Assembly: GCF_002443295.1 (NCBI RefSeq)
Contig: NZ_BAOS01000005.1
Location: forward strand, 186,001-250,000
Direction of reading: 5' to 3'
From: Candidatus Scalindua japonica
Lineage (GTDB): Bacteria; Planctomycetota; Brocadiia; Brocadiales; Scalinduaceae
DNA: 64,000 bases
Shown here in pieces: positions 20,384 to 34,879 of the stretch. Numbering within the stretch: position 1 is the stretch's first letter; each line of letters opens with the position of its first letter. Position numbers and translations under genes: made by a program. The notes beneath the pieces were generated by a model, which was not told the origin of the DNA, did not search any database, and saw nothing but the letters and a program-made list of their open reading frames with translations.

Positions 20384-21988
20384 TTAATTCTGTAACAACA
20401 GATGAAAAGCAATCATCGTCTTGTCCAGGTATGCCTGAAACGCAAGATTCCCTCTCTTGCTTAAACGATCATCACCAATATCACACTTCAAGCGCTTTAT
20501 CATCCGCTCAACTGAAGGACGACGTGTCATTATTGCCTTGAATCTCTTTGCCATTGGAGGATCTTCCGTGTCTATGTGGGGTAATAACCCAAATGATATA
20601 TTAATCATCCTGCCAGTTAACGAATTGGGACAACACTCTACCTGATGCAAGCATGTTGAACACACCGGTTCACCATCTGTATCCGTTGGCGCATGGTAAA
20701 TGAATTTTTCTTTTTCATAACGCATTCCTTTGTAATCCATCTCATGGCCACCATTGCATATTACCACACCATACGGCGTTATCTTCTCCATGCCACGCGG
20801 CAAACCATCTGTTATTCCATTCTTGCGCCTTGGATTTAAAGATGCCTTTAATTCTAAGCCGAGTTTGTCCATAAACTTATCTTTCAAATCTCTGCTATCA
20901 CACGCGCTATCATACAACGCTCTTTTAACCGATTCTTCAATCACCGGATATGTATCAAATACCTTTTCTACATGTGGAAAATATGTCTCTCCATCATGTG
21001 TCGGTCCATCCAACACTGCTCTTGCATCCAGAGGCACGCCTTGACGTGGAAAACCTACAATACTTGCTTTGTGCCCCCAATACATCTTTGTTATGGATTT
21101 CACGATTGTCCCCGCTCCTTCATCTGCCAATACCCAGTCATGTTCACACTTGTCTCTGTCCTGACAGCGACACCTCTTAGTCAGCTTTGATTGCGACTTC
21201 TTCTGCTCCTTACCATCTTCGTCCTTATACTTTACTGTCTCAAACCCTGAATATGCATAATAGTGAGTTGTATCTCCTACTACTTCCTTTTCTATTTTAA
21301 TCGCACCTGTCTCTATGTTCTCAGTTACCAGCGCAATCTTCATCTTATCCCATAGCCCCCACTCACTCATGATCTGGTCAAATTGCTGCAGTTTACGCTC
21401 ACTTGGTATATGCCTGCTACAATACTCATCCCTTTCCCCCTTCGGTGCAAATCCACATACTCGCACAAAACTCGGATTACTCTTCAATAACATGGACACT
21501 TTTTCCGGCTCGCACGGAAATCCCATTAGAGCTGTACCCAAAAAACTTTTTAACAACGCAAAAAAACATTTTGGCCTCTTACCTCCCAATCGAAATGGCA
21601 CTACCCCGGGAGATATACTCAGGGGACTTACCATCCGCTGCTTTGATTCAGCCGCTACTTCATAAAGCACATCACCTCTCTTCTCCTTGTCAACTTGCAT
21701 TGTTGCTCTATTAAACAAAAGCTCCTGTCTTGCATCTTCTTTGCTCTGAGATAATACTACTTGCTTTTGGGGTTGATTTTTCAGCCTCTTTCTCTCTTCT
21801 CGTTTATTAAATTCATAAAGTGCATCGTAGTACTCAGCACCGAAATTACGGTGTTTCTCCCAGGGAAAATAATATAAAGCCCGAAACCATTCCGCATCTG
21901 GTGTATTAAGCAGTACTTTGTCATCTTCGTGAACAGTGTGAATTAGTAGCGGTTTTTGGTTGATTTGAATTTGTGATATTGGTAGCAT
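20384..21988 (-). CDS. DDE transposase, IS1182/IS4-like
   Basis: This 534-residue protein has the spaced acidic residues of a DDE transposase: DWVLADEGAGTI, a second aspartate near YDSACDSRDL and the glutamate in RPSVERMIKRLK, followed by helices typical of the IS1182/IS4 superfamily C-terminus (RGNLAFQAYLDKTMIAFHLLL). A cysteine/histidine cluster (CSTCLHQVECC) resembles the zinc motif before the last catalytic region. It is intact. I could not find clear terminal inverted repeats by eye, so element ends and family are provisional. Confidence 0.65.
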   Translation of the reverse strand: MLPISQIQINQKPLLIHTVHEDDKVLLNTPDAEWFRALYYFPWEKHRNFGAEYYDALYEFNKREERKRLKNQPQKQVVLSQSKEDARQELLFNRATMQVDKEKRGDVLYEVAAESKQRMVSPLSISPGVVPFRLGGKRPKCFFALLKSFLGTALMGFPCEPEKVSMLLKSNPSFVRVCGFAPKGERDEYCSRHIPSERKLQQFDQIMSEWGLWDKMKIALVTENIETGAIKIEKEVVGDTTHYYAYSGFETVKYKDEDGKEQKKSQSKLTKRCRCQDRDKCEHDWVLADEGAGTIVKSITKMYWGHKASIVGFPRQGVPLDARAVLDGPTHDGETYFPHVEKVFDTYPVIEESVKRALYDSACDSRDLKDKFMDKLGLELKASLNPRRKNGITDGLPRGMEKITPYGVVICNGGHEMDYKGMRYEKEKFIYHAPTDTDGEPVCSTCLHQVECCPNSLTGRMINISFGLLPHIDTEDPPMAKRFKAIMTRRPSVERMIKRLKCDIGDDRLSKRGNLAFQAYLDKTMIAFHLLLQN

Positions 21989-30674: not shown

Positions 30675-31037
30675 TTATTTCTTTACCACTTTCTTCTTTG
30701 TAGTGGTTTTCTTTCTGGCCACAGGTTTCTTCTTCGCAGTGGTTTTCTTCTTAACTGTAGCTTTTTTCTTAACAACTGTTGTTTTTTTCACGGTTGCCAC
30801 AGTCTTCTTCTTGGTGCCACAAACTTTCTTCTTCGGCACAGCTTTCTTCACTGCAGCCTTTTTAACAGTTGTCTTTTTAGCTGCTGTCTTTTTAGCTGCT
30901 GTCTTCTTTACTGTTGTTTTTTTTGCTACAGTTTTTTCAGCAACAGCTTTCCTGGCTACGGTTTTTTTAGCCGTTGCCTTCTTTGCTGCAGGCTTCTTAG
31001 TTGCACACTTTTTACGAGTAACTTTCTTTACTATCAT
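30675..31037 (-). CDS. Histone H1-like lysine/alanine-repeat DNA-binding protein
   Basis: This protein of 120 residues is built almost entirely of AAKKT/VKKAT-type repeats, with about 45 percent lysine, no acidic patches and two cysteines. Such proteins resemble the tail of histone H1 and bind or compact DNA in planctomycetes, chlamydiae and some proteobacteria. A strong ribosome site (AAGGAGG) precedes the ATG. It stands alone between smc and nrdG. The length of such repeats varies easily between strains. Confidence 0.85.
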   Translation of the reverse strand: MIVKKVTRKKCATKKPAAKKATAKKTVARKAVAEKTVAKKTTVKKTAAKKTAAKKTTVKKAAVKKAVPKKKVCGTKKKTVATVKKTTVVKKKATVKKKTTAKKKPVARKKTTTKKKVVKK

Positions 31038-31086: not shown

Positions 31087-31821
31087 CTACCAATTACAGC
31101 TCAAGGCCTTCATTTCTTCACCTCTAACGTAACAGTTTTTTACATATCTCCGAGCACTTTCAGCAAAATCCCTAATCTCATCTTCTGAATATGGTATGAC
31201 ATCAAACATCTTGTTATCCAAACAGTTTGTCGGCCTGAAAGATTGTAAAATATATCTACTCGCACCTGTTATACTCTGTGCTATTTCAACAATATCAGCT
31301 TTATTTAAGAAAGCCGGGCAAACTGTAGTACGGAACTCATACTCAATTCCACTCTCCATTATCAGCTTTATACTCCTTGCAATGTCCGACAGACTGCATG
31401 TAACTCCACCCACCTCATTATACTTCACGTCTCTCAAAGGTGCTTTTATGTCCATAGCGATACAATCAATCAGCTCTCGCTGTATCAAGTCCTCTATCTT
31501 ATCAGGATTTGTACCATTTGAGTCCAACCTGACCTTTAAGCCCATATCTTTGAAGATTTTTATGAGTTCATCTAGGTCATCATGGAATGTCGGTTCCCCT
31601 CCGGAAATAACAACTCCATCCAGCCAATCTTTATTTTTCTCAATCCTCTTCTCTACCGCCTCTAAAGGTATGCTTTCAAGCTCATTAGGTTTCTGAACCA
31701 GATGGGTAGCATGACAGTAAGGACACCTCATATTGCAATGGGGAAGGAAAAGAATGGCAACAATATTTCCTTCCCACTCTATTAAGCTACTCTCAACAAA
31801 ACCCTTTATCATTATCGACAT
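31087..31821 (-). CDS. nrdG: Anaerobic ribonucleotide reductase activating protein (radical SAM)
   Basis: This enzyme uses S-adenosylmethionine and a [4Fe-4S] cluster to generate the radical on NrdD. The cluster motif is CNMRCPYC near residue 30, followed by the SAM-binding GGEPT. At about 244 residues it is longer than E. coli NrdG and resembles the TIGR02495 type. The ATG at 31821 is preferred over 31851 because AGGTGAT lies just before it. It is the last gene of nrdR-nrdD-nrdG. The partner NrdD lacks an obvious glycyl motif, which makes the exact substrate of this activase worth checking. Confidence 0.88.
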   Translation of the reverse strand: MSIMIKGFVESSLIEWEGNIVAILFLPHCNMRCPYCHATHLVQKPNELESIPLEAVEKRIEKNKDWLDGVVISGGEPTFHDDLDELIKIFKDMGLKVRLDSNGTNPDKIEDLIQRELIDCIAMDIKAPLRDVKYNEVGGVTCSLSDIARSIKLIMESGIEYEFRTTVCPAFLNKADIVEIAQSITGASRYILQSFRPTNCLDNKMFDVIPYSEDEIRDFAESARRYVKNCYVRGEEMKALSCNW

Positions 31822-31858
31822 TTTATCACCTGGAAAACAATATTTAATCAATATTCAT

Positions 31859-34252
31859 CTATTTACAACTTTTATTTGGAGCTGCAACATTCTCTGCATG
31901 CCTGTTGACCAATTCCTGCATCTTAGTCATATCCCAATTGTTAACCCTGTCTTGTGAAGCACTTCTTTTTATACTGTAAAGATTTGATGCATCACAGTAA
32001 GAACACTGATCTACCAACCTTGGGATAACACGGTGACATTCATTACAGATAGTAAACTCCGGTGATATGGTTAATTGTGCCGCCTGTGTATTCTCAAAAG
32101 TTCTCTTAACAAGCTTCATAATACTGGAAGCCGGAGGTCTCTCTTCACCCACAAACGCGTGTATTATCGCACCCGACTCAATCATGCTATGGAACATACT
32201 CTGCACCTCTATCCTCTTCACCATATCCACAGGCGCATCAGGACGCAGATGAACGCTATTGGTATAGTAAAATTCGTCTCTCTCCATATGACCCTTAACC
32301 AGGTCCACAGCTTCAGGGAAATTTCGAACGTCAATCTTTGCAAGCCTTCGACTTGCACTTTCAGCAGGCGACTCTTCAAGGGAGAATTTCAGATTGTGCT
32401 TTTTCCCCTCTTCTTTCACTCTGAAATACATATGAGAAATAATGCGTAGCCCAAGCTTAAGCGCTTCATCATCATCGTGCAACTCTTTACCAATCATAAA
32501 CTGCAGACACTCATTCAACCCTATAATACCGACAATGTAAGTCGCCGCTTCCAAGTCTACATACGGTCTTCCGTCATGGGCAGTTTTACCAATCTCCCAC
32601 AATGGCATATTCGGAGAAGCCATAAGCCTGGCAATAAAGTGCTTCTTCTCAAAATGGGCCTTGATGGCGATATCCATACCCCTGTCAATTTCCTTGTAGA
32701 GTTTATCAAGGTTACCCCTGCCAGCCCTGTAAGCAGCCTGTGGAAGGCTTACGGTTATATTTTGAAATCCACAAAATCTCATACTCTCCGGATGGTCAAT
32801 CATATAATTATCGTCAATAGTAGTACGCAATCGACAACATGCTGACAAGGTTATTTCATCCCTGTCAAAGACGAAATATGGCACCCCGTTTTCGCTGGCA
32901 ATCTGTGCAGCATATTCCAGAAGCTCGTATTGTTTAGGTTCGGTATATGTATCCTGACTTATATGAAAATCACATTTAGGGAATGCAAACACATGACCAT
33001 GACAGTCGCCATTTCGCCAGACATCAAGCAACGCCTTTGTAAACCTCTGGGAAGCCAATTCATAATCCCCATACGCCCTGCCGGTATACTTTCCTCCGGG
33101 GCCTACTGCCTGTATCTTCTTCAGATAATTTGGCACCCCCGTGTGTATGTTAAAATCGAGGAACAGTGTCTGCCCTCCACGTGAGAACGCGCTCTGAGAA
33201 CCACTGAAGATTAAGTGTTGAGCTTCCTGCTTCATCTCTTCATGGCTCATATGCTCTACATACGGAGCATACATTATATTGACATAACCTATTCCCAGAG
33301 CTCCGGCATAATACGCCTGCATCGATGCAAGAAAAGTATTTAAATGACCCGTAAGTGTTCGGGCATGTTTTGCAGGAGCGGAAGATGTGTCAAGGTTTTC
33401 CAGCGACAATCCATATTTCTTCAAGTACTCAAGAGAGTGGGATGAACAATACACCCTGGTTGGATAACCAAGATCATGGATATGGACCATCCCGGAAGTA
33501 TGAGCGTCCGCAACCTCTTTCGAATAAACCTCCTGAAGGGCATACTGTTTCATAGTATTCTCAGCAACGGCCAGGTTAATTGCTTCGGGGTTATTCGATG
33601 CTATATTACTGTTTTCCTTAACTTTGGAATAGATAAGCTCTTCAATATCATACTTTGGCATGCCGAGACTGGCCTGCTTTTTCAGCTTTGCGTTATAACC
33701 TCTCTCAAAAAGCTCATTATCCACTAACTCTCTGATTAAAGGAGTAGATATTTTGTTAAGTCCGGAAGCAAAGATGCGTCTCTCAACAGCAGCCGCAATT
33801 TCCTGAGATATGGAAACTGACAATTCCGCCTCTTTCTCCAGGGCTGTCGCTATTCTCGCCCTGTCCCACGGAAACGACTCATCTTTTGAAACAAGATCAA
33901 CCATGAGCGCCGCATCTGTTGTGTCACCGCTTTTCGTAGTTTGTTTTCTCACGCGAAGTGATTTACGCACCTTCGCCCTGTCTTCTCTGTATAAAATGTA
34001 GGCTTTAGCCGTCTTTGCATGTCCGTTTTTTATTAAAACCTCTTCAACCAAGTCCTGGACATCCTCAATACCTGGAATATTTTCAACAAATCTTTTTTGT
34101 AAAAAATGGGTAACAACACTTGCAAGCTCCGCTGCAATAGACCGGTCCGCTCCACCAACAGCTTTTGCTGCCTTAAAAATAGCATCTGCTATCTTGCTCT
34201 CATCAAATGCCACCATCCTACCATCACGTTTTTGAATTGTTTCAACTGTCAT
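31859..34252 (-). CDS. nrdD: Anaerobic ribonucleoside-triphosphate reductase, atypical C-terminus
   Basis: The 797-residue enzyme makes deoxynucleotides without oxygen. Two N-terminal ATP-cone regulatory domains (about 3-95 and 105-190) precede the ten-stranded barrel with the active-site loop SACCRLR and GFQNITVSLPQ. The C-terminal zinc site has two cysteine pairs (CNEC, CSYC). The glycyl-radical segment, usually R-x-x-G-Y before a conserved W, instead reads KRSASQDRVNNW with no glycine. Start at 34252 is chosen because GGAGGG, inside the end of nrdR, precedes it. Family is secure; the glycyl site is not visible. Confidence 0.88.
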   Translation of the reverse strand: MTVETIQKRDGRMVAFDESKIADAIFKAAKAVGGADRSIAAELASVVTHFLQKRFVENIPGIEDVQDLVEEVLIKNGHAKTAKAYILYREDRAKVRKSLRVRKQTTKSGDTTDAALMVDLVSKDESFPWDRARIATALEKEAELSVSISQEIAAAVERRIFASGLNKISTPLIRELVDNELFERGYNAKLKKQASLGMPKYDIEELIYSKVKENSNIASNNPEAINLAVAENTMKQYALQEVYSKEVADAHTSGMVHIHDLGYPTRVYCSSHSLEYLKKYGLSLENLDTSSAPAKHARTLTGHLNTFLASMQAYYAGALGIGYVNIMYAPYVEHMSHEEMKQEAQHLIFSGSQSAFSRGGQTLFLDFNIHTGVPNYLKKIQAVGPGGKYTGRAYGDYELASQRFTKALLDVWRNGDCHGHVFAFPKCDFHISQDTYTEPKQYELLEYAAQIASENGVPYFVFDRDEITLSACCRLRTTIDDNYMIDHPESMRFCGFQNITVSLPQAAYRAGRGNLDKLYKEIDRGMDIAIKAHFEKKHFIARLMASPNMPLWEIGKTAHDGRPYVDLEAATYIVGIIGLNECLQFMIGKELHDDDEALKLGLRIISHMYFRVKEEGKKHNLKFSLEESPAESASRRLAKIDVRNFPEAVDLVKGHMERDEFYYTNSVHLRPDAPVDMVKRIEVQSMFHSMIESGAIIHAFVGEERPPASSIMKLVKRTFENTQAAQLTISPEFTICNECHRVIPRLVDQCSYCDASNLYSIKRSASQDRVNNWDMTKMQELVNRHAENVAAPNKSCK

Positions 34253-34259
34253 TGTATTA

Positions 34260-34754
34260 TTACCCTCCATTCTTACTTGTTTTTTTCTGTTTTATTTTCT
34301 TCGCTGAAGGCATCAAAGGTTTAAGTTCATTTATAAATTCGTTTATATCTTTAAACTCTCTATAGACCGACGCAAATCTGACATAAGCAACCTTATCCAA
34401 AACCCTGAGATGTTGCATAACAAGTTCACCAATAGATGTTGTTTCAACCTCCTTCTCAAATTTATCGTATATTACACTTTCTATTTCAGAAACAATAGTT
34501 TCAAGTATATCCGTTGACACTGGTCTTTTCTCACACGCCTTGAGCAAGCCTGACAAAATCTTATTGCGATCAAAATTAATCCTGCTACCATCTTTTTTTA
34601 TCACCCTTACAGGGCTCTCTTCCACCCTCTCATATGTTGTAAAACGCCTGCCACAATTTAGACACTCTCTCCTTCGCTTTACACTCAACCCATCAGTTGA
34701 TGCTCTTGAATTAATAACTTTATCGTCGTCAACTTTACAGAACAAGCACTTCAT
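34260..34754 (-). CDS. nrdR: Transcriptional repressor NrdR
   Basis: NrdR is the nucleotide-sensing repressor of ribonucleotide reductase genes. The N-terminal zinc ribbon is MKCLFC with CLNCGRRF, followed by an ATP-cone domain (RVIKKDGSRINFDRNKILSG). The start is the ATG at 34754, since family members begin exactly at MKC; a longer frame to 34835 is spurious. It is directly upstream of nrdD, so the repressor and target form one operon. The tail after residue 150 is lysine-rich. Confidence 0.93.
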   Translation of the reverse strand: MKCLFCKVDDDKVINSRASTDGLSVKRRRECLNCGRRFTTYERVEESPVRVIKKDGSRINFDRNKILSGLLKACEKRPVSTDILETIVSEIESVIYDKFEKEVETTSIGELVMQHLRVLDKVAYVRFASVYREFKDINEFINELKPLMPSAKKIKQKKTSKNGG

Positions 34755-34879
34755 AATGGTATCAGAATTAAAAAAACACAAATGTAAAAGCAACAACCAG
34801 AGAACAACATCTGGGATGTGTGAGTAAGCTACCATACAACATATAGAATGTCAAGTGGAATTCCAGGGATTAATTTTTT

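Follow-up and report, generated by a model that had tools for sequence, protein, structure and literature searches.

A NrdD chain of Candidatus Scalindua japonica that lacks its radical glycine, and a candidate separate protein that may carry it

An nrdD gene without its radical glycine

How can a class III ribonucleotide reductase start catalysis when the glycine that carries its radical is missing from the chain? Glycyl radical enzymes are described with the radical on their own chain, and in the accessible part of one account only YfiD (GrcA) and Y06I are validated spare parts, both for a single enzyme, pyruvate formate-lyase, others being speculated (PMC8683613). We met the question in the window, by which we mean the whole analyzed stretch of 64,000 nucleotides from Candidatus Scalindua japonica. 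Its nrdD gene lies on the minus strand (31859..34270) and encodes 803 aa if translation starts at the ATG at 34270, or 797 aa from the ATG at 34252, where the original prediction had placed its end. The two flanking genes are on the same strand. Upstream in the cluster, nrdR (34260..34835) encodes the NrdR repressor (TIGR00244, 197.8 bits, cut-off 124.65), and on the other side nrdG2 (31087..31851), which adjoins nrdD, encodes a radical-SAM activase with the motif CNMRCPYC (TIGR02495, 188.5 bits, cut-off 131.15). Beside nrdG, a short lysine/alanine-rich ORF (30675-31037, minus strand) resembles the histone H1-like family HC2, its 37.3 bits lying below the Pfam cut-off of 40.

The NrdD product comprises two ATP cones, a class III barrel, a zinc ribbon and a degenerate radical loop (TIGR02487, PF13597, PF03477). 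TIGR02487 (NCBIfam) matched with 376.4 bits against a cut-off of 326.35 and aligned over model positions 1-579 of 581; the C-terminus is therefore present and aligned, not truncated. The Pfam NrdD family PF13597 scored 386.5 bits (cut-off 26.2), the first ATP cone spans residues 11-99 (33974..34240, minus strand; the better of two PF03477 stretches), and Pfam returned nothing beyond NrdD and ATP cone. The models of the B12-dependent class II enzyme NrdJ (TIGR02504/02505) matched only via the ATP cone. Family models, ATP cones, a CCR finger loop, the zinc ribbon and an adjacent NrdG are shared with the known class III reductases (T4, E. coli, P. copri 8p23, N. bacilliformis). In those enzymes, however, the radical glycine sits on the same chain. 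An AlphaFold model of the window NrdD built from eight sequences was poor (pLDDT 58.8) and was not used. The closest NrdD records are named Candidatus Scalindua (93% when the whole protein is compared, as much as 96% for a partial match), and a contig labelled Parcubacteria, perhaps misbinned, carries an NrdD that is 92% identical to that of the window (L033).

The original prediction held that this NrdD has no recognisable glycyl-radical motif and that the SACCRLR loop, the zinc cysteines and the NrdG partner are present. Both statements were borne out by alignment. The finger loop SACCRLR (residues 476-482; 32825..32845, minus strand), the region of the catalytic thiyl cysteine, is 100% conserved at 7 of 7 residues among 40 aligned NrdDs without the glycine, and the beta-A cysteine, C275, is intact. 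The zinc ribbon CNEC...CSYC (residues 742-759; 31994..32047, minus strand) holds C742, C745, C756 and C759, all 100% conserved in 40 glycine-less and 52 glycine-plus rows. It is followed by the degenerate glycyl-radical loop YSIKRSASQDRVNNW (residues 765-779; 31934..31978, minus strand), which we located by alignment with the loop YGISRIVGYFSRINNW of a sister family (f5; our guess is the Brocadia/Kuenenia family). The glycine column is occupied by Ser772 (codon 31955-31957), after which one residue is deleted, and the solved P. copri NrdD (8p23) reads RITGY at the same stretch. Sequence features that define class III reductases were all found except the C-terminal radical glycine on the same chain. 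Because Ser772 replaces it, we file the window protein by itself as a catalytic chain and not as a complete class III enzyme.

The chance that a sequencing or assembly artefact removed the motif is practically negligible. No supporting point was found, the other two frames of the loop stretch contain no glycyl-radical motif by eye, and the glycine is absent from 14 of 14 readable homologues of the same family (f1, taken as the Scalindua family), whose genomes were assembled separately. A radical glycine elsewhere in NrdD was also rejected, the aligned region 739-792 of the glycine-less proteins having no invariant glycine.

The loss extends well beyond Scalindua. Within the same order, taken as Brocadiales (anammox), families f2, f3 and f4 are glycine-less as well, except for two of eight f2 members (G023, RTDGY; G027, RLDGY) in which the loop is otherwise degenerate. 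Family f5 keeps the glycine with the exception of one genome, G042, which reads RIGDY and has the small protein described below. Outside the order, glycine-less members were found in f39, f86, f98, f45, f49, f70 and f55, and the glycine is kept by members of f6, f7, f15, f17, f38, f44, f51, f81, f99, f102 and f103. On a tree of 101 NrdD proteins, built with the loop excluded, the glycine state needs six changes.

The window NrdD is nevertheless still under selection. Its body is under strong purifying selection (median pN/pS 0.107 over 45 pairs of ten f1 genomes), and in the same ten genomes pN reaches 0.253 in the loop versus 0.062 in the body, about four times as much. Mean conservation of the loop is 0.43 in the 40 glycine-less NrdDs versus 0.89 in glycine-plus ones, in a table restricted to rows of at least 700 bits and without the two proteins of f55. 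Decay is complementary: SACCRLR and the zinc cysteines are fully conserved while the radical loop degenerates.

A separate small protein with an NrdD-type radical loop

A class-wide search returned weak matches to the last ~30 positions of the NrdD model in separate ORFs of 124-163 aa. We call these proteins SA. In the genome of the window (G000), SA is a protein of 146 aa (contig C40, 21044-21484, minus strand; probable GTG start) with a perfect NrdD glycyl-radical loop near its C-terminus, NGITRIVGYYSRVNNWNKSK, which reads RIVGYYS around Gly102. A profile built from 15 SA proteins matched it at 21089-21481 (minus strand) with an E of 1e-46. SA proteins consist of an N-terminal domain of their own of ~90 residues and a final stretch of ~50 residues that includes the NrdD radical loop. 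Across 15 divergent SAs 17 columns are invariant, among them R-I-V-G-Y, N-W-N, S-K, E-L and D-R. Pfam and NCBIfam recognised only the last ~30 NrdD positions, below cut-off, besides weak unrelated matches; for SA of G000 these were PF13597 with 22.8 bits and one unrelated weak family. PHROGs gave nothing convincing for five SAs. With the loop excluded, the N-terminal parts of SAs from the order and of the f39 type are related (hhalign probability 87, score 36 over 61 columns; 20 decoys scored at most 15). The AlphaFold model of a viral SA homologue (L260) reached a pLDDT of 86.3 and places the glycine between short strands 99-102 and 105-108, with a local pLDDT of about 76, as would be expected of a radical hairpin. 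A structure search with this model returned nothing from the PDB with an E of 0.001 or lower, and the best VIA-align hit had a Z of 4.7 over residues 1-92.

We compared the distribution of SA with the glycine state of NrdD. Among 75 genomes of the class, SA was found in 17/17 of f1, 8/9 of f2, 0/1 of f3, 2/2 of f4, 31/33 of f5, 1/2 of f7 and 0/11 of f6, f102 and f103 together. Outside the class, in a phylum sample of 392 genomes, 23 have a separate SA ORF: 18 of them with a glycine-less NrdD, two with an NrdD cut off before the loop, two with only weak NrdD matches and one, G359, with a glycine-plus NrdD. A 24th profile match (G115, E 9.5e-4) has no loop. On the tree of 101, SA accompanies 38 of 43 glycine-less NrdDs and 30 of 54 glycine-plus NrdDs, 28 of these 30 in f5, so SA alone is no marker of a lost glycine. 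Four tree rows were not counted for the motif (G023 and G027, and G146 and G347, which are cut before the loop), and the count of 38/43 omits locus L038 and NrdDs scoring under 500 bits against that of the window. The latter include fragments, for example those of G005 and G379 (no glycine, SA present), further G044, in which the glycine and SA are both present, and NrdDs from other subfamilies, all of which have the glycine if their end was read. A tree-corrected test of independent pairs was not significant, only two pairs lying on well-supported branches. Five glycine-less genomes lack SA even with a broader profile (G017, G018, G110, G118 and G183). Low completeness or close relatives with SA may excuse the first three (G017, 96% complete, has such relatives; G018 is 77% and G110 73% complete). 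There is no such excuse for the f55 genomes G118 and G183 (L243, L244), whose NrdD is about 47% identical, reads RIADY for RIVGY, and has either decayed or follows another arrangement. The SA and the glycine-plus NrdD of G359 (f99; L211) lie away from f5 on the tree and represent another possible spare-part stage.

Very probably, to judge from these sequences, SA is activated by NrdG and gives NrdD its glycyl radical in trans, as GrcA/YfiD does for pyruvate formate-lyase, but obligately. In that case a class III ribonucleotide reductase would consist of two chains, the window NrdD for catalysis and SA for the radical glycine. SA would dock on NrdD near the zinc ribbon, and NrdG, with SAM and its 4Fe-4S cluster, would generate the glycyl radical on Gly102. 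Occupying the site of the dead loop, the SA hairpin would insert into the NrdD barrel, where its radical would abstract hydrogen from a finger-loop cysteine (C478/C479), and ribonucleotide reduction would begin. The presumed order of events starts from a state like that of f5, in which NrdD keeps its glycine and SA may stand in as a spare part when oxygen has damaged NrdD; the NrdD loop has decayed in f1, f2, f4, f39 and others, where SA would have become necessary. A class III reductase would have a candidate spare part of its own, seemingly compulsory in several lineages, and radical transfer between separate chains of such a reductase becomes directly testable.

This proposal has precedents in part. 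GrcA/YfiD and T4 Y06I are, like SA, small proteins with a glycyl-radical domain that resembles that of their enzyme. SA differs in carrying the NrdD loop, not PF01228, and in its predicted folded N-terminal domain, the N-terminus of YfiD being disordered according to the available portion of PMC8683613. In Scalindua it would also be obligatory, whereas GrcA/YfiD is a repair part. The accessible text of PMC12338860 reports that E. coli with full-length PflB G734A made formate with GrcA and not without it. The sections available of PMC12288474 present NrdD as an enzyme that oxygen inactivates and name no NrdD spare part. Likewise, the accessible parts of three accounts of class III diversity (PMC9669993, PMC4493059, PMC9531940) mention neither a glycine-less NrdD nor a radical domain acting in trans. 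The open-licence literature, a scope outside which most subscription papers fall, yielded no report of a glycine-less NrdD with a separate radical protein. NrdJab resembles NrdD and SA in being a reductase in two chains, but it belongs to class II and its split is not known to set a radical-bearing domain apart. It is known from Pseudomonas aeruginosa as a split class II enzyme of two chains, here from a title cited in PMC9669993.

The original prediction had offered two explanations, a displaced radical site or a divergent subclass that uses another radical. Displacement agrees with our data, although into a separate gene and not to another place in NrdD. The second explanation, in which the loop Ser, the Cys of f3 and f4, or another cofactor replaces the glycyl radical, we regard as extremely unlikely. 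A Cys does occupy the former glycine position in f4 (GGCCSKK and NSCCSKK; L078, L084) and f3 (RMGCNGS; L074), but the residue there is S, T, L, A, N, D or C and varies even inside one family, Pfam matches are confined to NrdD and the ATP cone, and the order retains nrdG with its CxxxCxxC. The NrdD-type loop, moreover, is kept in separate proteins with 17 invariant columns, as described above.

NrdG, NrdR-type boxes and other reductases

An in-trans radical would still call for the activase. At 21 of 21 loci of the order that were examined besides the window, the glycine-less nrdD has an nrdG with CxxxCxxC nearby. Outside the order a nearby nrdG was found at 13 of 19 such loci, and of the remaining six, four lie at the end of a contig. 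At two f39 loci (L115, L117; G090, G207) nrdG was not found within about 4 kb downstream, room being present, and SA is in the genome. A further ORF follows SA at five loci of f1 and at one of the two of f4 (L200:3867-5765, minus strand; equivalents in L142, L145, L215, L216 and L217). Its product in G000 is a fusion of a BcrAD/BadFG ATPase with an HGD-D domain, and a second HGD-D gene comes next; ATP-driven electron donors of the BcrAD/BadFG type might feed low-potential electrons to NrdG.

Two NrdR-type palindromes, spaced by 31 bp, precede the SA gene in the order and lie upstream of a TTGAC that resembles a -35 element. We scored upstream regions against what we take to be the NrdR box consensus, so that all sites are predictions; a search of the open-licence literature for NrdR box wording found nothing. 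At least 22 of 32 was reached by 39 of 46 SA upstream regions of the order, and 44 of 46 chose a spacing of 31 where 31 and 32 were allowed; SA of G000 scored 24 of 32 at spacing 31. Of the 58 order genomes with SA, 45 contributed these 46 regions; G041 was omitted because its upstream region is short, 12 had no locus, and the second SA copies of G024 and G036 were excluded. None of 132 control regions (other upstream regions of the same loci and of the window) reached 22, the maximum being 21. Among the first 154 controls 16 had done so, and removal of the 22 that overlapped the SA promoter left the 132. The class II nrdJ genes of G000 and G012 also have a box pair (scores 25 and 26). No such pair precedes the nrdJ genes of the short type in G015 and G003, which scored 19, and the pair at the nrdRDG cluster of the window is weak (20-21). 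Box pairs at 23 or more were found at 0 of 64 viral SA genes; the second SA copy of G036 (L153, score 18) has no pair, nor do most SA genes beyond the order. Judged by these predicted sites, the SA gene appears to be under NrdR control, which would amount to control of the enzyme.

The boxes also bear on whether SA might be the spare part of another glycyl radical enzyme, with NrdD radicalised in some other way. GrcA does serve pyruvate formate-lyase in E. coli (PMC8683613, accessible part), which lends this reading some plausibility. We nevertheless consider it very unlikely, since PF01228 was found in only 5 of 59 genomes searched, G000 not among them, and SA is in 17 of 17 genomes of the family. 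Its loop matches NrdD and not PF01228, NrdR-type boxes precede its gene, and viral nrdD genes are split at this very point (see below). A standalone domain of the pyruvate formate-lyase type was rejected for the same genome: SA of G000 is not matched by PF01228, and the genome holds no such domain.

Could the glycine-less NrdD have ceased to be a reductase, NrdJ making the dNTPs, NrdD being kept for a role such as nucleotide sensing, and SA being a leftover spare part? NrdJ-type genes (PF02867) are indeed present in G000 and nine others of 17 family genomes, and the radical loop of NrdD is degenerate. With a class II NrdJ encoded in the genome of the window, NrdD may be dispensable. Against a non-reductase NrdD stand the full conservation of SACCRLR and the zinc cysteines in 40 glycine-less proteins, the strong purifying selection on its body, the nrdG kept at 21 of 21 order loci and the invariant SA loop, and we judge this explanation unlikely. 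A simple replacement of NrdD by NrdJ was rejected, as it leaves the conserved active site and SA unexplained. Five of 17 glycine-less order genomes that are at least 90% complete (G002, G008, G010, G019 and G021) show no match to PF02867, TIGR02505 or PF00268, so the split enzyme would be their only reductase. Such absences prove little, because G004, 93% complete and with SA, shows no reductase of any class. The class I beta subunit (PF00268) was found in 0 of 59 genomes. The NrdJ of G000 (L105:4108-6738, minus strand) is of a long type with 876 aa, also present in G001, G012 and G016, and the NrdJ of other relatives has about 590 aa, which makes two NrdJ types within one family.

Viral SA genes and split viral nrdD genes

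IMG/VR, scanned with the SA profile, yielded 66 loci, among which are several near-copies; SA is encoded at 65 and a complete NrdD at one. The best viral SA is 80% identical to an SA of the Scalindua family. PHROGs annotation of four loci placed SA with portal, head or tail genes (L260, L263, L286) or with primase/helicase (L269). SA of G000 had no tblastn match among the INPHARED phages. We searched 43 viral records for NrdD: 42, which may be fragments, carry SA alone, and in the remaining one, G452, an NrdD terminates just after the zinc ribbon (...CENCNSGDVEGIEYYQ) and SA is also present.

Natural splits were found at the same joint. A scan for NrdD identified three contigs of 113-178 kb (L346, L348, L349), viral according to IMG/VR with few of their genes tested, in which NrdD stops between the two CxxC pairs of the zinc ribbon, the second pair being encoded, together with TRIVGYFS or SRIVGYFS, in a short ORF of its own. 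This ORF has 46 codons and starts 25 nt past the nrdD stop in L348, has about 52 codons and lies some 430 nt further on in L349, and has 53 codons about 6 kb away in L346/L419. In total, nrdD is split in four of nine viral records in which the NrdD C-terminus was read; the loop is in one piece in L347, L350 (distant), L417 and L418 (alike) and L424.

Viral contigs thus either carry SA or have the gene split at this joint. Building on the proposed two-chain enzyme, we think it probable, with some reserve, that the radical is an exchangeable subunit: one NrdD could be switched on by the host's NrdR-controlled SA or by that of a phage, and in some large viruses the two chains would share one zinc ribbon, two cysteines each. 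Phage-borne SA would activate the host NrdD, perhaps to the benefit of the phage. If this holds, dNTP supply would be regulated and hijacked via the radical carrier and not via the reductase, which would open a way of examining how dNTPs are controlled, and how phages take over, in anammox bacteria. For the NrdDs of L388, L417, L418, L424 and L349 the reading frame is either very long (1209-1676 aa) or broken in two, a pattern that inteins might produce.
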